Positions 1 through 13,143 of a stretch of 35,539 nt of DNA are shown piece by piece (positions within the stretch are counted from its first letter, which is position 1; the number at the start of each line of letters is the position of its first letter). The DNA comes from Nitrospinia bacterium (GTDB lineage: Bacteria > Nitrospinota > Nitrospinia > Nitrospinales > JAJDAT01): positions 1 through 35,539 of the forward strand of contig JAJDAT010000023.1 in the NCBI GenBank assembly GCA_029261715.1, read 5' to 3'. Position numbers and translations under genes: made by a program. The notes below the pieces were generated by a model. It did no database searches, had not been told where the DNA came from, and saw nothing but the letters and a program-made list of their open reading frames with translations.

Positions 1-790
<790 letters not shown>

Positions 791-3398: not shown

Positions 3399-4706
3399 AT
3401 GACTCTAGTTAAACAAATTGGATTAATGGTAATGGGGTTTGGGATGGCGTTTGTTTTTTCTTTAACGCCAATCGATCTGGAGTTTGTCAAAACAGTGCGT
3501 GACCGAACCCAAGTCCGTACTTATGAGCTCTTTGACCCTATTGATCGTTCTAAAGAAAAGCACGTACTGCTCGGTAATTGTTTTACGGTCAACAACGTTG
3601 CCTATACAGATCTGTGGGGTAAGAAACCTGACATTGTTTATAGACACGGCACTGCCTTTCTTGGGCAAGTGATGAGCTACTTACTCAATTCCGAATATGG
3701 AAATGATTCTGCCAAGTTTTACGATATGGGAGCGCCGGATACTTTAGTAACCGAACATATTTTTCAACTCGGTCATTTAATCAAAGCGTCCAATATAACA
3801 ACTCTTATCTACACAAATATCAATTGGGCGCTTTACAGCTTTCGCGAAAAGAAACCTGAAAGCACTCTACAGGCAAGCGTAGTTTTAGAACATTGGAAAG
3901 ACGAATTCCCTGAAGCTCGCCCTTATATAGAAAATTATCTAAAAAGTTTATATGAATCGAAGCAATATAAAAAAACCGTTAAAAAATTTCCCGAAGGAAA
4001 CTTTCTAGATCAAATGGAGCCAAAAATCTTTCCGGCTGGTTATTCGCCATCATCTACTTCGGGAACTAACGATGTTTTCAATAAATTTTCGACATTAAAA
4101 AACTACACCATTCGGTCTTATTCACACATCAAACGCGCTAATGATAAAAGATGGAATCAACAACTAGAAACAAATGCGCTAAAGGCATTAGCCCTTTATC
4201 AAAGTCCTGCAAATGATAAACCCATGATGATGTGGAAATCTCATTCCAAGTTGACGATTGATCCAAAAAAACGCAAAGAATTCATCTGGTTTCTTCATAT
4301 AATGGGAGAGATTTGTAAGGCGCGCGGCATAAAGCTCATTTACTATTATCCACCTATGATGGGTATAGAACGCGAAAACTACGAAAAAGTATTTAGGCCA
4401 AACACAGTAAACTTTATTCAAGATGTGATAGCTCCTTACGGAGGAATCACTATCGATCATGCTTTTAAACATAATCAGAATCCGTACGACATGTATTGGA
4501 AAACCCGAAAAAACCCTCCCGTATACTTTAAAAGAGGTTTTGAGACTAACATCATCGGAAACTTCAAACGAGGTCGAGCTTTAATTGAAGAAATGGCCGA
4601 ATTGGATTTGGTGCAAATTAATCCTAAAAAACAAAATGATAAACCTTGGAGTGTTGCAGCTTTACCAAAAGTAGAAACGGAAATTGAAGAATTTCATTCC
4701 CATTAA
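3399..4706 (+). CDS. DltD-like SGNH-fold membrane protein with altered catalytic residues
   Basis: A 435-residue protein with one N-terminal membrane span (about residues 5-22) and a periplasmic SGNH-type domain. The pattern is visible: block I VLLGNCFTV (residues 56-64), a FYDMGAP block, and IYTNIN at the block III position. The usual nucleophile motif GDS/GSS is replaced by GNC, with Cys61 at the Ser position, and the C-terminal DxxH block appears as ETNIIGNFKRG without the His. In Gram-positive DltD the Ser-His-Asp set is essential for D-alanine transfer, so this is either a Cys enzyme or a non-catalytic partner. It begins the operon; the stop is 7 bp before the DltX-like gene. The DltD label rests on position and fold pattern, not on close identity. 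Confidence 0.7.
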   Translation: MTLVKQIGLMVMGFGMAFVFSLTPIDLEFVKTVRDRTQVRTYELFDPIDRSKEKHVLLGNCFTVNNVAYTDLWGKKPDIVYRHGTAFLGQVMSYLLNSEYGNDSAKFYDMGAPDTLVTEHIFQLGHLIKASNITTLIYTNINWALYSFREKKPESTLQASVVLEHWKDEFPEARPYIENYLKSLYESKQYKKTVKKFPEGNFLDQMEPKIFPAGYSPSSTSGTNDVFNKFSTLKNYTIRSYSHIKRANDKRWNQQLETNALKALALYQSPANDKPMMMWKSHSKLTIDPKKRKEFIWFLHIMGEICKARGIKLIYYYPPMMGIERENYEKVFRPNTVNFIQDVIAPYGGITIDHAFKHNQNPYDMYWKTRKNPPVYFKRGFETNIIGNFKRGRALIEEMAELDLVQINPKKQNDKPWSVAALPKVETEIEEFHSH

Positions 4707-4713
4707 ACAAACA

Positions 4714-4851
4714 ATGAATAAAGAAAACCTAAAAGATAGTTTACTAAGTGTCCTGACTGGGGTCTGCCTTTATATTGCCGTATCCCTTTTGCTCAATCCT
4801 AAGATGGTTGAGCTACAAGCAACTTGGGCCTTATTTTATGGTGATTTTTAA
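4714..4851 (+). CDS. DltX-like 45-residue single-span membrane protein
   Basis: A short ORF: ATG start, stop at 4849-4851. It fits the operon exactly, 7 bp after the upstream stop and 5 bp before the carrier-protein start. The product has a charged N-terminus (MNKENLKDS), one hydrophobic span (about residues 10-28) and the C-terminus WALFYGDF. In Gram-positive dlt operons DltX is a similarly small single-span protein whose C-terminal FxYxxF motif holds the tyrosine that takes D-Ala from DltB. Here Tyr42 is followed by Gly-Asp-Phe45-stop, giving LxYxxF at the same place. No Shine-Dalgarno is obvious, so translation is probably coupled. Without this motif I would have called it only a small membrane protein. 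Confidence 0.72.
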   Translation: MNKENLKDSLLSVLTGVCLYIAVSLLLNPKMVELQATWALFYGDF

Positions 4852-4856
4852 TACCC

Positions 4857-5093
4857 ATGGCAACCAAACAGGAAGTGATGCAATTCATACAAACCGAACT
4901 GAGCCTCAAACAAATTGAGGACGGAACAACTATGGGACAAGTTCGCGGTTGGGACTCTTTAAAACATGTTGATTTGATCTTAAGTTTTTCGGATAAATAC
5001 AAGGTGCAAATCCCACCCAGTCGGATTGGCGAATTGATTTCCGTATCGGCTTTAACTGAATACCTTCGCGAAGAAAATATCTTGGAAGATTGA
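4857..5093 (+). CDS. acyl/aminoacyl carrier protein (DltC-like)
   Basis: A 78-residue acidic four-helix carrier protein. The phosphopantetheine site is GWDSLKHVDL, with Ser34 as the attachment residue. The length matches DltC and ACP-type carriers. The start codon lies 5 bp after the DltX-like stop, and the adenylating enzyme begins 17 bp downstream. The position between a DltX-like protein and a DltA-like ligase argues that it carries the activated acyl or aminoacyl group as a thioester rather than serving fatty acid synthesis. Confidence 0.88.
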   Translation: MATKQEVMQFIQTELSLKQIEDGTTMGQVRGWDSLKHVDLILSFSDKYKVQIPPSRIGELISVSALTEYLREENILED

Positions 5094-5110
5094 GCGTCGC
5101 ATAATCCCAA

Positions 5111-6736
5111 ATGCCTATTTTTTCTTTACTCCATCAATCAGTAGAACACCATTCCAAAGTAACCCCTGATCATATCGCCATTGACGAGGGAAATAGATCC
5201 ATTTCCTACTTAGATCTCGCAACGGCTATGCAGGCAACTGCTTCCTACTTACAAACTCTAGAAGTCAAAAAAAACGAACGCATCGGATTACTAAATAGTA
5301 ATGGCATTGAAGCTTGTATAGGTATTCTCGGTTCTCTTAGAGCTGGCTCGTGTTATGTCCCGCTCAATACAACTTTTCCGGGTAAACGCTTAGCTGCAAT
5401 CATCAAAGACGCCGAAATCAAAACTATCATCTCTTCCAAGCAACATCTCGCAAAATTGGTCGAGTTAACTCAAGAAACTAGCGACTTAAAATTGAACTCA
5501 TTAATCATTCTTGACGCTTCTGAAGAAGAAATTCAATTTCATAACTCGTTTGACACTCTCTCCTCTTGCTTTAGAAAAATCGTCGGGCAAGAAACTCTTA
5601 AAAAAAGTATTTCGCTGAAACCTTGCTCTACAGCTGAAGATGACCTGGCCTACATCATGTATACCTCGGGAACAACGGGAACCCCCAAAGGCGTCATGAT
5701 TTCGCATAAAAACGTTACGTCTTTTTTAACCTGGGCTGTCGAATATTTTTCTTTAACTTCTCAAGATCGCATGTCCAATCACTCAGATATTAGTTTTGAT
5801 TTGAGCGTCTTCGATATTTTTGGAGCTTTCTATTCTGGCGCGACTCTTTGCCCGATATCTCAACCTGGCGATTTTGCTTTTCCAGCAAATTTCATAAAAG
5901 TTCGTAAACTTACTATCTGGTTTTCTGTGCCCAGCGTTATTGGAACTCTTTGGAAAAGCGGTCAGCTAACCGAAGGAGCGTTTTCTAAATATTTACGTTG
6001 GGCTATTTTCTGCGGCGAAGCCTTGTCTCCAAAATATGCCGACCTTTGGATAACAACACATCCTAAAACATCCATTTGCAATTTATACGGACCTACCGAA
6101 GCTACCATCGCTTGCACTTACCATAATGTAGATATCGACTCTAAATTTGATCCTGGTGAAGACGTCCCTATCGGCCTTCCCATTGGCGATACAGAAATTA
6201 ATATTTTGAGTGATGATTTAGAAAATCTAAACAGTAATAAGCAAATAGGAAAATTGACAATTTCTGGTCCACAGGTATCTCAGGGATATTGGGGAAGGAA
6301 AGAACTCACAGACAAAGTTTTTATTTCCAATGAGCCAAGTCGATTTTACGATTCTGGAGATCTAGCTTATATAGATGAAAATAGTTTTATTCGTTTTGTA
6401 GGTCGAAAAGATACCCAGATAAAAATTCGCGGGTACCGAGTTGAACTTGGAGACATTGAAAATGCAATAATAAGTCACTCGATCGTCAACGAAGTTGCGG
6501 TTTTATTTTTTGACGAGCCCCCCTCTTTACTCATTGCGACAGTCACCTTACAATCTCAAACTAAAGATCGATCAAACGACGCTATCGAAGAGGATATTCT
6601 CGAACATTGCGAGCGCTTAATTCCTTCATATATGGTTCCCAATCGAATTATTTTTTTCCCCGAACTGCCTAAAAATGTGAATGGAAAAATTGATCGCAAC
6701 GCTATCCGAGAAACTCTCCGTAAAAACTTAAAATAA
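5111..6736 (+). CDS. AMP-forming adenylating ligase (DltA-like, amino-acid adenylation type)
   Basis: A 541-residue ANL-superfamily enzyme with the core motifs in order: A3 YTSGTTGTPKGVMISHKN, A4 FDLSVFDIFGAF (its Asp is the residue that binds the amino group in amino-acid adenylation domains), A5 NLYGPTEATIACT, A7 YDSGDLA, A8 GRKDTQIKIRGYRVELGDIE and A10 NGKIDRN with the catalytic Lys. It should adenylate a carboxylic acid, probably an amino acid, and load it on the carrier protein at 4857. It is slightly longer than Gram-positive DltA (about 500). A free-standing adenylation domain beside a single carrier and an MBOAT protein indicates Dlt-type chemistry rather than a peptide synthetase. 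D-Ala as substrate is inference. Confidence 0.88.
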   Translation: MPIFSLLHQSVEHHSKVTPDHIAIDEGNRSISYLDLATAMQATASYLQTLEVKKNERIGLLNSNGIEACIGILGSLRAGSCYVPLNTTFPGKRLAAIIKDAEIKTIISSKQHLAKLVELTQETSDLKLNSLIILDASEEEIQFHNSFDTLSSCFRKIVGQETLKKSISLKPCSTAEDDLAYIMYTSGTTGTPKGVMISHKNVTSFLTWAVEYFSLTSQDRMSNHSDISFDLSVFDIFGAFYSGATLCPISQPGDFAFPANFIKVRKLTIWFSVPSVIGTLWKSGQLTEGAFSKYLRWAIFCGEALSPKYADLWITTHPKTSICNLYGPTEATIACTYHNVDIDSKFDPGEDVPIGLPIGDTEINILSDDLENLNSNKQIGKLTISGPQVSQGYWGRKELTDKVFISNEPSRFYDSGDLAYIDENSFIRFVGRKDTQIKIRGYRVELGDIENAIISHSIVNEVAVLFFDEPPSLLIATVTLQSQTKDRSNDAIEEDILEHCERLIPSYMVPNRIIFFPELPKNVNGKIDRNAIRETLRKNLK

Positions 6737-6748
6737 GAGGCTCTGCAT

Positions 6749-8452
6749 TTGTTTCAGTCCATTTTTTTATCTATGGAGAATTATTATGTTGAGTCGACTT
6801 TCTATGTCGCGGTAATCATTGGAATTCTACTTTATCGCATAATTTGCCGCTGGTCTTCTCCCCAACCCAAACAAATCGCGTTTATCGGCCTAAATATTTT
6901 TTTCTTGTTTCAACTAAAAGAAGCAAATCAATTTATTCCTCTACTGATTGCTTATTTAATCTGTGTTATCGGTTTTGGTTATTTAATTTTTCAATCAAAG
7001 TCGGAGAGACGGCGAAAATTAACATTTCGAATTGGAATCGTTTTTTGTTTATCTACGTTAGCGCTTTTTAAATATCCCAATTATATCTACCTGATTATGG
7101 GTGGAGAAAATATATTAAGAACACTTTCAACACTGGAGTGGGTTGGTCTTTCGTATTTAACCTTCCGGGCTATAGATTTCATTATCATGGTCCATACCAA
7201 ACGTATCAAAGAATTTAACCTTTTAATAATCTGCTCCTATTTTATTTTCTTTGCTCCGTTTGTCTCAGGGCCCATCAATCGTTTTCTACCGTTTGTCAAA
7301 AACCAAATCGCTCCGGATACATCACTCGACTTTTCTAGACTACGGCGTAACCTACTTAGAGTTTCTATTGGCATCATCAAGATTCTTTTTCTTTCCAAGT
7401 TGGCGTATGCAAATTCAATCATCGCTCCTGAATTTCAGATTATCCAACCCGTTGACATTATTGTCTTAACTTGGAGCGTTTACGCCTATTTCTTTTATAT
7501 TTATTTTGAATTTTCAGGTTACTGCGATATCGCTATTTCAATCGCTGATTTTTTTGGAATAGACGTTCCAGAAAACTTCGAATATCCATTCCTTGCTTCT
7601 AATATTCAAGACTTCTGGAATCGTTGGCATATTTCTCTTTCGCAATGGATGCGCGACCACGTATTTTTCCCGTTAACAATTTATTTAACGACTCGAAAAA
7701 TTCTTCCCAAACTGGCGGTTTCTTGCTTGAGTATTTTTGTTACTTTTTTTCTTATTGGAATATGGCATGGCAATTCTTTGAACTGGGCTTTGTATGGAAT
7801 CTATCATGGAATTGGACTCTCTCTTTACATGTTATACAACCAAGTTCTCAAAACTAGATCTCCAATTTTCTTTGAAAAACTAAGCGACAATGCAGGCTAC
7901 AAAATCATTTGTATCCTAGCTACTTTTAACTTTGTTGCTTGGGGCTTTCTATTGACCCTCGACCTTCAAAAAGCCAAAAACATATTGGACAACCCTTCCT
8001 CGATGTCTTTAGTTGATGAAAGCTATTCAACTATTCCAAACAACCTTTTCTCTTCTGAAATCGAAATCAGGCAAGCTTCGGAAGGAATATTAGTTACTCC
8101 GCTTTCTAAGGCTAAAAGCTCGCCACTGTTGCTGCTTGGCGGAGGAAGCTGGAACAGCCTATCGTCAAAAGATGGTTGGGAACTAATTCCTAGGGCATAC
8201 TATAGAGGTTCTTTAACTGGCGACATGTCTACGGAAGGTGAAATCGAAGTTCTATGCTTGATGTATAACAGCAAGGGACAATTGATTCGGCAAAAATCAT
8301 TGGGGTTCATCCGCTCTTATGCTTTGCCAATCATTTTTGATTTCGAAGGAATCGATCCAGCCATTAGATTCAATATAGCGTTATCTGCAAATCTAGAAAA
8401 TTGGCCAAAGGAAATAACTCTAACCAAGCTGCGAATAGAAAAAATAAACTAA
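6749..8452 (+). CDS. MBOAT acyltransferase (DltB-like) with extra C-terminal beta-rich domain
   Basis: A 567-residue polytopic protein. The TTG start at 6749 is chosen because AGAGG lies 8 nt upstream; the next ATG (6773) lacks a ribosome site. The MBOAT core (to about residue 410) contains FEFSGYCDIAISIADFFG, NIQDFWNRWHISLSQWMRDH, IGIWHG with the catalytic His340, and YHG with His353. DltB and AlgI homologues pass an acyl group across the membrane. DltB is usually about 400 residues; here residues 414-567 form a non-membrane, beta-strand-rich tail (for example RAYYRGSL, GEIEVLCLMYN, GQLIRQKSLG) resembling a jelly-roll or carbohydrate-binding module. It starts 12 bp after the ligase and ends this operon segment. 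Confidence 0.88.
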   Translation: MFQSIFLSMENYYVESTFYVAVIIGILLYRIICRWSSPQPKQIAFIGLNIFFLFQLKEANQFIPLLIAYLICVIGFGYLIFQSKSERRRKLTFRIGIVFCLSTLALFKYPNYIYLIMGGENILRTLSTLEWVGLSYLTFRAIDFIIMVHTKRIKEFNLLIICSYFIFFAPFVSGPINRFLPFVKNQIAPDTSLDFSRLRRNLLRVSIGIIKILFLSKLAYANSIIAPEFQIIQPVDIIVLTWSVYAYFFYIYFEFSGYCDIAISIADFFGIDVPENFEYPFLASNIQDFWNRWHISLSQWMRDHVFFPLTIYLTTRKILPKLAVSCLSIFVTFFLIGIWHGNSLNWALYGIYHGIGLSLYMLYNQVLKTRSPIFFEKLSDNAGYKIICILATFNFVAWGFLLTLDLQKAKNILDNPSSMSLVDESYSTIPNNLFSSEIEIRQASEGILVTPLSKAKSSPLLLLGGGSWNSLSSKDGWELIPRAYYRGSLTGDMSTEGEIEVLCLMYNSKGQLIRQKSLGFIRSYALPIIFDFEGIDPAIRFNIALSANLENWPKEITLTKLRIEKIN

Positions 8453-8795: not shown

Positions 8796-10826
8796 TTGAA
8801 TAACAAATTTTGGCGAAATTCAGCGATACTCGTAATTTGCCTTTTAACAAGCTGTGTTTTGTTAGAAGTAACCATTCGAGTATTTCTTCCTCAAAAAATT
8901 GAACCTAACTATCACACCCCCGCTTTTAAAATACCAAATGCCCTACGTTCGAATGTCGATATAAAAATAAAAGAACACGAACCCATTCCCGACTATCAAA
9001 TAGTTACTAACGAAAAAAATATTCGAAATAATCTGCCTATTCCATATCAAAAGCCATCCCAAGAATTTCGAATATTGCTCCTGGGTGATTCAGTATTTTT
9101 CGGCCCTGGAATTCAATTTGAAGAAACATTCTCTAATCAGCTTGAAAAGTTCTTAAACGTAAACGCCAAAGAAAAACGTTTTAAGGTAATTAACTCATCT
9201 GTTCCGGCGTGGGGGCCTTTAGAATATTTTGTTTATTTAAAAAATGAAGGTCATAAATATTCACCCGACCTGATCATCATCAGCAGTTTCCTCGACGACC
9301 TTAGGCAAAGCTTTTCCCAAAAAATAACTTTCCGCGACATTGAATGGGAAAAAACAACCGACGGTTTCTTGAAGATTAATTTAATAGGAATGCAAGTTTC
9401 ACTTTCTAGAAATACAATCTTAACTACTCTTTGGGAAAAAATAAGCCAAGCTGATTGGTACGCTAAATTATCTCAAACATCTCATTTACTCAATTTAATT
9501 CGGTTTCGTATGAGCGCTGTATCATCTCAGGGGTTTCCAAGCGCCTCTTCAGAAGGAAAATCTCTGAAAGATTTTTTAAAGGAATCCGGTCTTAGACTAA
9601 ACCCAAAAACTATTTGGAGCTATGAATCTAAACTTCTAAAGATAAATCCTGAATATCAACCAGCGTTATATTTTGCCAACCGATATAAACAGGATGTGGT
9701 CGAAGCGGAAGCAAATGTTGTTCTATATAATGTTCTAATGCAGGAATTTCTTGATTTAGCCTCCACAGCGGCGGGAAAAACTCTGATACTCAAAATCCCT
9801 TCTTTCTTCGAAGCTGTTGGATTGTCACAACCCAAACATCCAGAATGGGTTTTTGATCAAACCGATACAACCCAACACTTAGATCTATTTAAGCCATTTT
9901 TTGATTTTCAAAATTCACATTCACCTTTTCTCTTTTTTCACTTTAATAACCACTGGACTCCAGGTGGCCATCTATTTTTCGCTAAGTTATTAGCGCGCTA
10001 CATAAGCGATAAAAAACCTTTCCGTCAAATTCACGAACTCCCAAAGCAATCGATATCATGGCCTCCAGAGACCCACCAATCGGTTGAAAACGCTAACTTT
10101 AGAATTCTAGAGTTTTTAGAGAAAGATCATTACCAATTACTTTTGAATGGGATGCGCCAGAAAAACCAAAACTTGCTAAAAGAAGCCGAAAAAACTCTAA
10201 CTCAATATATTCAACTGCAACCAGAGCAGTACGAAGCTTATTTTCATCTTGCAATGGTTCATTTCAAATTAAAACACTATCAGAAAGCGTTAGCCCTGCT
10301 AACCGAAGCGCAAAAAGGCCATGCTTTAGAAATTCCTAAATATCGTCGAGCCTACAAATTTATAAAAAATTATTGGGAAGGTGAGAAAAATCTTAGCCAA
10401 GGCCAATTTAAAAAAGCCCTTCCGTTTTTTCTAAAAGCCGATGAGACTGAAAAAAGACGGGAATTAGTGAACAACGAACTCGCTACTATTTACAGTACAT
10501 TGAAAAATTTTACCAAGGCGGAATTTTATTACAAAAAGGAGATTAAAAAACGCCCGGGTTGGGTCCCCTCGCACCTGAATTTAGGTTCGCTTTATCTAGC
10601 GAACAAGCAATATAATCAGGCTATCAAACAGTATCAAAAAGCCTTAGAAATAGACCCAAACTTTTTTGGAACATACACTCTAATAGGAGAGGTACATTTT
10701 AAATTGGGAAAACGGGATATCGCCATTAAAATGGGACAAAAGGCTTTACAATTGAAACACGACGACCAATTCACAAAAAGCCAATTAAAAAAATGGACCG
10801 CAGCCCCTCTTGTTCAAAGAAAATAA
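8796..10826 (+). CDS. membrane-anchored SGNH-fold protein fused to C-terminal TPR repeats
   Basis: A 676-residue protein starting at TTG, with an N-terminal span (about residues 9-31). The SGNH domain follows: block I ILLLGDSVFFG with Ser99, then INSSVPAWGPLE, and a block V written FNNHWTPGGH, where Asn replaces the usual Asp before the His, as in AlgX/AlgJ-like proteins (D-x-H-W-T). Residues about 453-665 form TPR helices, for example AYFHLAMVHFKLKHYQKALA and LGSLYLANKQYNQAIKQYQK. It probably works in the periplasm, either transferring or hydrolysing acyl groups on a glycan while the TPRs hold partners. The last 34 bp overlap the next gene, suggesting coupled translation. Confidence 0.8.
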   Translation: MNNKFWRNSAILVICLLTSCVLLEVTIRVFLPQKIEPNYHTPAFKIPNALRSNVDIKIKEHEPIPDYQIVTNEKNIRNNLPIPYQKPSQEFRILLLGDSVFFGPGIQFEETFSNQLEKFLNVNAKEKRFKVINSSVPAWGPLEYFVYLKNEGHKYSPDLIIISSFLDDLRQSFSQKITFRDIEWEKTTDGFLKINLIGMQVSLSRNTILTTLWEKISQADWYAKLSQTSHLLNLIRFRMSAVSSQGFPSASSEGKSLKDFLKESGLRLNPKTIWSYESKLLKINPEYQPALYFANRYKQDVVEAEANVVLYNVLMQEFLDLASTAAGKTLILKIPSFFEAVGLSQPKHPEWVFDQTDTTQHLDLFKPFFDFQNSHSPFLFFHFNNHWTPGGHLFFAKLLARYISDKKPFRQIHELPKQSISWPPETHQSVENANFRILEFLEKDHYQLLLNGMRQKNQNLLKEAEKTLTQYIQLQPEQYEAYFHLAMVHFKLKHYQKALALLTEAQKGHALEIPKYRRAYKFIKNYWEGEKNLSQGQFKKALPFFLKADETEKRRELVNNELATIYSTLKNFTKAEFYYKKEIKKRPGWVPSHLNLGSLYLANKQYNQAIKQYQKALEIDPNFFGTYTLIGEVHFKLGKRDIAIKMGQKALQLKHDDQFTKSQLKKWTAAPLVQRK

Positions 10827-11959
10827 TTATTTCTCTATTATTACAAATTGCTACCACATTAATAATAATATTAGGATACGAAGCATATTTCCAAAGTAGA
10901 GCAAACCGAGCTTCAGCTATTAAATTTGATTCAGAGCTTGGCTGGGCGCCTATCCCTCACAAAATTTCTCCAGCAAATTTATATTATAAATTCAAATTAA
11001 ACTCTTTAGGTTTTAGATCCCAAGAAATAGATCCATCTAAAGAACATATTTTATTACTGGGAGATTCTGTAGCCTGGGGAATTAAAACAAGCGATAACGA
11101 AAACTTTTCATTCTTCTTAGGCCAAAAACTTTCTAACTACCAAGTTATTAACATGGCAGTTCCAGGATATGGAATTGACCAAGCCTATTTATTCTTGAAA
11201 AGACATATCCATAAATTAAATCCCAAATTAATTATTTTAATGATTCACACCGGAAATGATTTATACGATACGGGATCTAATAGAGTTATTGGAAAAAATA
11301 AACCTCTATTTGTTCTTCAACAAAATGAGATAAGGTTGTTCACAAACAAAATTTCAAGATTCTCATGCACCAACTTAATATATGGAAGTCATATACTCAG
11401 AAAACCTTTTTTAAGTTCTCTTAAAAGCAAATTATGCAAAAATAAAATTTTACGTTTAGACGAAGCAAGTAATGTTATTGGCGCCCTATTTCAAAAAATC
11501 AACGAGTTGAGTAATAAACATCAAGCGAAAGCTCTTTTTGTCATCTCTCCCTCTAAAAAAGATTTAAAAGTAGAAATATGTCGACATAACTCTTCACTAA
11601 GTTACTGCCAGGCTTTTCGAAGGTTATTATTTTCAAACGTTAAAAATCAAAACTCGAAAAATCTTCAAATCAACAATTTTAAATCCATTAATTTAAAACC
11701 CTTAGGTTTAGCTTCCCCACTAACTGTAAAATCTATACTAAGAATAGAATGGGGCGCTTCAATAATATTTCAAGATATTTTGAAAGCTTCAAACTTGAGT
11801 TATTTTGATTTTTCACTAGTTTTGGGAAAAACAAAACTAATAAACGATCTAGTTTCCGAGATCTATGTCGACAATTCCCATTATTCAGCAAAGGGGAATA
11901 AACGATTTGCAGATAACGTTGCAGACTGGTTGTATGAAAATAACTGGATAAATAATTAG
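10793..11959 (+). CDS. membrane-anchored SGNH/GDSL hydrolase-family protein, paralogue 1
   Basis: A 388-residue protein: N-terminal span (about residues 10-28), then an SGNH domain with LLLGDSVAWG (Ser92), NMAVPGYGI (Gly block), HTGNDL (Asn block) and DNSHYSAKGN holding the C-terminal Asp and His. All four catalytic blocks are present, so it is probably an active periplasmic esterase or acyltransferase. The start overlaps the upstream SGNH-TPR gene by 34 bp. It is clearly a tandem duplicate of the next gene: both share FDSELGW, LNSLGFRS, GDSVAWG, TGNDL, ISRFSC and WGASIIFQDILKAS at the same spacing. The substrate is unknown; the locus suggests an acylated glycan. Confidence 0.8.
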   Translation: MDRSPSCSKKIIISLLLQIATTLIIILGYEAYFQSRANRASAIKFDSELGWAPIPHKISPANLYYKFKLNSLGFRSQEIDPSKEHILLLGDSVAWGIKTSDNENFSFFLGQKLSNYQVINMAVPGYGIDQAYLFLKRHIHKLNPKLIILMIHTGNDLYDTGSNRVIGKNKPLFVLQQNEIRLFTNKISRFSCTNLIYGSHILRKPFLSSLKSKLCKNKILRLDEASNVIGALFQKINELSNKHQAKALFVISPSKKDLKVEICRHNSSLSYCQAFRRLLFSNVKNQNSKNLQINNFKSINLKPLGLASPLTVKSILRIEWGASIIFQDILKASNLSYFDFSLVLGKTKLINDLVSEIYVDNSHYSAKGNKRFADNVADWLYENNWINN

Positions 11960-11970
11960 AGTTCAGCCCA

Positions 11971-13143
11971 ATGCTCCAATTTCTAAAAACGAAAAAGAAA
12001 GAGATAAGTCTAGCCCTTATTTCGGGAATTGCCACTCTATTGATAGGAGCTGTTGGATTCGAATTCTATTTCCAATATAAAACAAACAAAGAATCTGCTT
12101 TTCAATTTGATTCGGAACTTGGTTGGTCGCCAACACCTAATAAAAAATCATCTATTAACCGATTTTCTAATTTTCAGCTCAATTCCTTAGGATTCAGATC
12201 TAAAGAAATAAACGAATCCAAAAAGCATATTTTAGTGTTGGGAGATTCTGTCGCGTGGGGGTTTGGGACTAATAACCAAGAAGCCTTTCCTTCCTATTTA
12301 GGTCAAAGTTTTACAAACTCCCAAGTATTGAATATGGCAGTTTCAGGATATGGTATTGGCCAAAGTTATTTATTTTTAAAAAAACATATTGATAGAGTTA
12401 ATCCAAAACTGATTATTTTTGTCATTTACACAGGAAACGATTTACACGAAACAGGATCAAATATGGCTTATGGCAAGAGTAAACCTATATTTGTCATTCA
12501 AAATAATCAGATCAACCTAATTAACGATCATATTTCAAGGTTTTCATGCATTAACTTGATTCATGGGAGTCATTTATTGAAAAGACCATTTTTTGATTTC
12601 TTAAAAAATGGATTCTGCGAAATTAAAACATTAGGTTTGAATCAAGCGACAAAAGTAATAACAACCTTATTTCAAACAATTAATGCCATCGGGTTAAACC
12701 ATAACGCTAAAACATTATTTGTAATTTCTCCTTCCAAAAGCGATTTAAAAATCGAAATTTGCAGATACAATCCAACTCATGACTATTGCCGAGCGTTTCA
12801 GAATCTTTTGTTTCCCAATCAGAATAAGAATTCAAAGACTAATAGATTTTATATAAAAAACTTTGAATCTCTCAATTTAAAACCCTTAGGTCTATTTCCT
12901 CCCTTAACTGTAGATTCTATAAAAAGTTTGGAGTGGGGAGCTTCAATAATATTTCAGGACATCTTGAAAGCTTCCGGTCTAAATTATTTTGATTATTCTT
13001 CTGAATTGGCTAAAACGAAACTAATACATGAACAGCTTTCAGATCTTTATATTGATGATGCCCACTATTCTGCTCAAGGGAATAAGCAGCTTGCAAATAG
13101 CATTGTAAATTGGTTGAGGAAAAACCGTTGGATGGATAATTAG
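11971..13143 (+). CDS. membrane-anchored SGNH/GDSL hydrolase-family protein, paralogue 2
   Basis: A 390-residue protein, tandem paralogue of the previous gene, starting 11 bp after its stop. It has an N-terminal span (about residues 12-30), then LVLGDSVAWGFG (Ser93), NMAVSGYGIG, YTGNDLHETGSN and DDAHYSAQGN with the C-terminal Asp and His. The catalytic set is complete, so duplication has not inactivated either copy. Similarity is high along the full length by eye, with most changes in the middle third, which could mean diverging specificity. It is the last gene of the rightward acylation locus and is followed by the bidirectional terminator at 13159-13209. Confidence 0.8.
   Translation: MLQFLKTKKKEISLALISGIATLLIGAVGFEFYFQYKTNKESAFQFDSELGWSPTPNKKSSINRFSNFQLNSLGFRSKEINESKKHILVLGDSVAWGFGTNNQEAFPSYLGQSFTNSQVLNMAVSGYGIGQSYLFLKKHIDRVNPKLIIFVIYTGNDLHETGSNMAYGKSKPIFVIQNNQINLINDHISRFSCINLIHGSHLLKRPFFDFLKNGFCEIKTLGLNQATKVITTLFQTINAIGLNHNAKTLFVISPSKSDLKIEICRYNPTHDYCRAFQNLLFPNQNKNSKTNRFYIKNFESLNLKPLGLFPPLTVDSIKSLEWGASIIFQDILKASGLNYFDYSSELAKTKLIHEQLSDLYIDDAHYSAQGNKQLANSIVNWLRKNRWMDN

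Follow-up and report, generated by a model that had tools for sequence, protein, structure and literature searches.

A Dlt-like operon in a Nitrospinota bacterium whose MBOAT protein carries a predicted CBM-like domain

The Dlt system of Bacillota (DltXABCD) D-alanylates teichoic acid. Within it, D-alanine is passed from the MBOAT protein DltB to the tyrosine of a C-terminal FXYXXF motif on the microprotein DltX, and from there to DltD (PMC12148441); His289 and His336 have been named as key residues of DltB (PMC11035591). In AlgI/PatA-type systems, the MBOAT itself bears the fused shuttle motif and acyl-CoA serves as donor, and MBOAT pathways other than Dlt are said to operate without separate microproteins (PMC12148441). 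The AlmEFG system places glycine on lipid A (PMC3783018; PMC12930378), and AlmE combines glycine activity with misactivation of D-alanine (PMC12930378). Among Gram-negative bacteria, Dickeya, Pectobacterium, and Photorhabdus carry dlt genes with an acceptor yet to be identified (PMC3544676), and in Bordetella pertussis, for which the dra locus is cited, D-alanine is attached to a still unidentified outer-membrane component (PMC9410548). Dlt genes in such organisms were thus already known, and the part of the original prediction that places the present locus outside Gram-positive bacteria is not new. The operon bears on the question of which acceptor Gram-negative Dlt-type systems serve (PMC3544676: still to be identified).

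The window analyzed here is the entire contig 23 (35,539 bp) of a 5.3-Mb assembly in 52 contigs. Between 3399 and 8452, five nearly abutting plus-strand genes, all confirmed as open reading frames, encode in 5' to 3' order an SGNH-superfamily protein with one TM helix, a microprotein of 45 aa, a carrier protein, a ligase of the amino-acid adenylating type, and an MBOAT protein (Table 1), so that both the five adjacent genes and the predicted D-X-C-A-B order stand. With the likelier start codons chosen for the microprotein (ATG 4714) and the MBOAT (ATG 6773, aligned with the MBOAT start of a relative), successive intergenic gaps measure 7, 5, 17, and 36 bp, which makes a single transcription unit probable. 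The presence of LpxC and LptD indicates an outer-membrane-bearing host, in agreement with the earlier Gram-negative reading, and the phosphopantetheinyl-transferase family has two matches in its genome. Its assignment to Nitrospinota follows the name of the relative described below and the order that the two share. An Rfam scan upstream of the operon found no riboswitch and matched only 16S rRNA; this partial gene (window 1-790, minus strand, 801 bits) lies at the contig end and is the likely reason why the contig stops there.

Table 1. Positions of the operon features (window coordinates unless another contig or locus is named)
Feature	Position	Strand	Remarks
DltD-position protein	3399..4706	+	TM residues 2-20 and SGNH-superfamily domain with non-canonical active site
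Cys61	3579..3581	+	[GS][NS]C aligned with GSS, the catalytic Ser of SGNH partners
DltX-like microprotein, 45 aa, single-span	4714..4851	+	TM residues 9-27; C-terminus LFYGDF
Tyr42, putative acyl-carrying tyrosine	4837..4839	+	Aligns with Tyr of FXYXXF
Carrier protein, 78 aa	4857..5093	+	Ser34 in GWDSLKHV (4956-4958), predicted phosphopantetheine site
Amino-acid-type adenylating ligase	5111..6736	+	Code DLFFICLIA and NGK lysine
DltB-type MBOAT	6773..8452	+	MBOAT Pfam 6.4e-14; ORF open from TTG 6749
CBM-like beta-sandwich domain, C-terminal in MBOAT	7958..8449	+	Predicted with AlphaFold2 and Foldseek
Relative's locus	PCWG01000022.1		Nitrospinae bacterium CG11_big_fil_rev_8_21_14_0_20_45_15
Extra 247-aa gene in relative	L033 11648-12391	minus	No Pfam match

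The gene order SGNH-X-ACP-ligase-MBOAT recurs in a second Nitrospinota genome of the same taxonomic order (loci L033/L034), and its recurrence at 48% identity for the SGNH-like protein, 52% for the ligase, and 50% for the MBOAT argues that the arrangement is not due to chance. The predicted conservation of the five-gene order thus extends to one relative only, in which an additional 247-aa gene separates the microprotein and the carrier. In the neighborhoods that were read, the flanking genes beyond the cluster differ between the two genomes, and no acceptor gene was found within the neighborhood that both conserve. Further operon members were found in none of several hundred genomes: a scan of 386 genomes yielded only noise-level fragments of the operon, a contig scan with narrow patterns matched the known relative alone, and a plasmid search returned no member. 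Among the top literature matches listed, none linked Nitrospina to D-alanylation or MBOAT proteins.

A PDB sequence search with the window MBOAT returned DltB as its only matches (2e-39). We discarded this result as proof of DltB identity and built a tree, because the PDB had returned no AlgI-type relative for comparison. The 44-sequence tree contained five DltB from Bacillota plasmid records, and its motif-fused MBOATs included an N. gonorrhoeae sequence that we take to be PatA; the MBOATs of the window and the relative grouped with the five DltB at a support of 98/88. Constraints placing this pair among motif-fused MBOATs (p-AU 0.0095) or among other split MBOATs (p-AU 0.028) were rejected. 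The MBOAT therefore appears to side with DltB rather than with AlgI/PatA-type enzymes, a placement that is good but not final because the branches are long and "with DltB" denotes one side of an unrooted branch. A grouping with alginate O-acetylases, which the original prediction had named as evidence against itself, did not occur. His294 (7628-7630) and His340 (7766-7768), numbered from TTG 6749, align with DltB His289 and His336, and the C-terminal shuttle motif of AlgI/PatA-type enzymes is absent. The TIGR04091 score of 224 bits lies below the cut-off of 375, which no protein reached among 385 genomes, and is the highest of them.

A feature missing from the original prediction is the domain fused to this MBOAT. 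Residues 404-567 of the ORF contain no TM segment and were predicted to be all-beta (AlphaFold2 pLDDT 74, pTM 0.74), and a Foldseek search with the model gave CBM29 as the best match (E 3e-5), followed by CBM22, CBM6, and related jelly rolls, at TM values of about 0.5-0.6. The examined DltB sequences stop where this domain starts, and in AlgI/PatA-type MBOATs its place is taken by the TM-plus-motif tail; because that tail is periplasmic in fused MBOATs, the domain would also lie in the periplasm. Jelly rolls are widespread and not all of them bind sugar, so a sugar-binding role is something we infer. The domain probably keeps the acceptor glycan close to the MBOAT active site, which would offer a direct handle on the acceptor question of Gram-negative Dlt-type systems.

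The microprotein had no above-threshold Pfam match. It ends, like the MYYGDF terminus of its counterpart in the relative, in a separate C-terminal version of FXYXXF in which Leu or Met replaces the first Phe, and the DltX proteins of S. aureus, Listeria, and Enterococcus terminate in FIYNEF. On this alignment, we propose Tyr42 as the residue that would carry the acyl group. The DltX-sized single-span protein of the original prediction is thus DltX-like down to the shuttle tyrosine.

The ligase matched the AMP-binding plus C domain models (1.4e-79) and exceeded the cut-off of the amino-acid adenylation model TIGR01733 (348 versus 317 bits), but remained below those of two DltA models (319 versus 476 and 307 versus 560 bits). 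Its pocket code (GrsA numbering), which includes Asp235, is identical in the window and the relative. Compared with code fragments taken from PDB alignments, it agrees at 6/9 positions with DLHLFCLIA of AlmE (4oxi) and at 4/9 with DLM[TVI][LMF]CTVA of DltA, differing at the other five; the code of IdnL7 (6akd) reads DCFFLALIT. The Cys at code position 301, present in all DltA examined, is kept. From these two sequences and few references, we take the reading no further than an amino acid with a small side chain, either glycine or alanine. The predicted amino-acid-type ligase is accordingly borne out by Asp235, the code, and TIGR01733, and the sequence is not of the fatty-acyl type, activation of fatty acids only having been named as one of the refutations; D-alanylation as the named activity fares worse, with a code nearer to AlmE (glycine) than to DltA (D-alanine). 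The predicted carrier likewise holds, with a weak PP-binding match (E 0.0017, under the Pfam cut-off) and the serine motif retained. ACP models reached 2e-5, also under their cut-offs, the DltC model gave 14 bits against a cut-off of 68, and the comparison with the L033 counterpart gave 84 bits.

At three loci (L074 5933-9278, L123 7195-10688, and L127 7258-10590), a motif-fused MBOAT is accompanied by an acyl-type ligase and a carrier protein of its own, in contrast to the acyl-CoA donor described for fused systems. We rejected these loci as instances of the system in the window, as none of their ligases has an amino-acid-type code. Their ligase-carrier-MBOAT order would fit an AlgI/PatA-type O-acylation in which a carrier replaces CoA and the acyl group is not an amino acid; for the window operon, this is highly improbable, given an MBOAT outside the fused clade and a ligase with Asp235 and an amino-acid code.

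The DltD-position protein had no significant match in Pfam, NCBIfam, PHROGs, or PDB; PF04914 (DltD) matched nothing in the window genome, and direct profile comparison with DltD gave an E value of 0.26. A two-row profile aligned by hhalign with four SGNH partners from other split-MBOAT loci gave an E value of 0.0014, and a deepened SGNH profile of partners of other MBOATs gave a probability of 92% and an E value of 5e-7, against 0.09 to 0.21 for reversed controls. DltD itself matched the deepened profile at 7e-35. On the strength of the 5e-7 match and its controls, we assign the protein to the SGNH superfamily. Cys61 is conserved in the relative, and the Asp-His pair is missing from the C-terminal block, where DTDH of L066 aligns with RGFE. 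Of the predicted DltD-like SGNH membrane protein, then, the single TM segment and the superfamily survive, and neither membership in the DltD family nor a Ser-His-Asp triad does. As Cys61 stands in for Ser and the Asp-His pair is absent, the protein may act as a cysteine-dependent transferase or may serve for docking without catalysis; that Cys61 acts as the nucleophile is our guess from the alignment. Such a non-canonical SGNH partner offers a test of whether DltD-type catalysis is required at all. The AlphaFold2 model from two sequences reached a pLDDT of 36 and was kept out of fold searches.

These results bear on the unlikely alternative of a plain, merely diverged D-alanylation of the Bordetella/Dickeya kind, with a D-alanine donor and a conventional DltD role. 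The MBOAT grouping with DltB, the retained Cys 301, and the existence of Gram-negative dlt genes (PMC3544676; Bordetella dra) agree with it, but the match of the code to AlmE over DltA, the lack of any DltD family member in the genome together with the missing triad, and the CBM-like domain beginning where the examined DltB end all speak against it. Downstream of the operon, at 8796-13143, lie three SGNH-type proteins: one contains TPR repeats, and the other two are tandem paralogues that share 58% identity and belong to a family matched about 30 times in the window genome and not at all in the relative. We strongly doubt that one of these canonical proteins is the final transferase and the 3399 protein only a scaffold: they keep GDSV-type motifs and run in the same direction as the operon, but the second genome lacks the 10793 protein's subfamily, which has ~30 matches in the window genome, and no such gene lies beside the relative's locus.

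Compared with described systems, the operon shares with Dlt a ligase, a carrier, a DltB-type MBOAT, compactness, a separate microprotein with a C-terminal tyrosine motif, and a one-TM SGNH-superfamily protein. It differs in gene order, the CBM-like domain, the ligase code, the Gram-negative host, and a DltD-position protein outside the DltD family and without Ser-His-Asp; moreover, a search for TagF-like genes (PF04464) found none in either genome. Like the Gram-negative dlt genes of Dickeya, Pectobacterium, Photorhabdus, and Bordetella (dra), it belongs to an outer-membrane host and falls among genes for the esterification of amino acids (PMC3544676; PMC9410548), and those genes, described as dltABC/dltD homologues, are set apart from it by description only. 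With AlmEFG, which glycinylates lipid A in Vibrio cholerae, it has in common an amino-acid ligase whose pocket code is similar and a carrier dedicated to the system, but AlmG is an LPLAT-domain protein rather than an MBOAT (PMC3783018), the cited AlmEFG papers describe no tyrosine shuttle for it, and none of the five operon proteins matched an LPLAT model. The PatAB, AlgIJFX, and WssHIFG O-acetylation systems likewise have an MBOAT, a tyrosine shuttle, and an SGNH partner, but they use acyl-CoA as donor and carry the motif on the MBOAT itself, as a fusion (PMC12148441), and the window MBOAT lies outside their clade.

We consider it fairly probable that the operon encodes a Dlt-like aminoacyl relay acting on an extracytoplasmic polysaccharide. 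Judging from its code and family, the ligase would convert a small amino acid, most likely glycine or alanine, to aminoacyl-AMP and load it onto the phosphopantetheine arm of the carrier. The DltB-type MBOAT, as its tree position, its histidines, and the motif suggest, would then move the aminoacyl group across the membrane and onto Tyr42, at the microprotein's periplasmic end. In the least certain step, the group would pass to a hydroxyl of the polysaccharide via, or aided by, the one-TM SGNH-like protein, and the CBM-like domain would probably hold the acceptor glycan by the active site. The relay is favored by an order kept in two divergent genomes, the DltB tree, the histidines, the motif on the microprotein and not on the MBOAT, the Asp235 code near AlmE, the SGNH profile match, the CBM-like domain, the outer membrane, and the negative TagF-like search. 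Counted against it are the missing canonical DltD triad, the missed cut-offs for DltA, DltB, DltC, and DltD, the restriction to two genomes, a code prediction drawn from two sequences and few references, and the lack of an acceptor gene among the conserved neighbors. The evidence upholds most of the Dlt-like reading and part of the original interpretation: the system appears to work like Dlt and, by family tests, counts as Dlt's relative rather than as a full member. It has an extra sugar-binding-like domain and an altered last enzyme, and it probably attaches a small amino acid to a sugar polymer of the cell surface. More tentatively, and with the odds against it, the operon could represent a new branch of surface modification by aminoacyl esters. 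In this reading, a small amino acid, possibly glycine, would be transferred to a polysaccharide by a DltB-type MBOAT bearing a CBM, a split tyrosine shuttle, and an SGNH-fold transferase that relies on cysteine. The operon would then exemplify a broader class, in which MBOATs outside Dlt are served by shuttle microproteins.

That class emerged from a survey of 92 MBOATs, with the motif and filters set by us. None of the 74 motif-ending MBOATs adjoined a single-span microprotein bearing the motif, and 12 of the 18 without their own motif (one a truncated copy) did so (Fisher p 5e-11, with related sequences counted as independent). Reading the loci added three further motif microproteins, those of L065 (TIYATF), of L. 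oris (DltX), and of the relative, the last having fallen outside the distance filter. Nine split loci lie outside Dlt (L065, L066, L067, L069, L100, L103, L121, L124, and L179 from Leptolinea), each with a short one-TM ORF, found by six-frame reading, that ends in the Tyr motif beside a motif-less MBOAT. To our knowledge, a separate tyrosine shuttle at these loci is new, the priority check having covered literature other than the original DltX-shuttle paper (10.1038/s41564-023-01411-0). Separate shuttle microproteins are thus not restricted to Dlt, against the statement in PMC12148441, and the split/fused distinction predicts short genes that annotation may overlook; the Leptolinea microprotein is annotated as a hypothetical protein. 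The split locus L121 (3321-8855) contains two adjacent AMP-ligase-like ORFs, neither with an amino-acid-type code. Two MBOATs ending in LIYGGF (L084 7979-9406 and L088 7760-9217) fell near DltB on long branches in a quick tree despite their fused motif.
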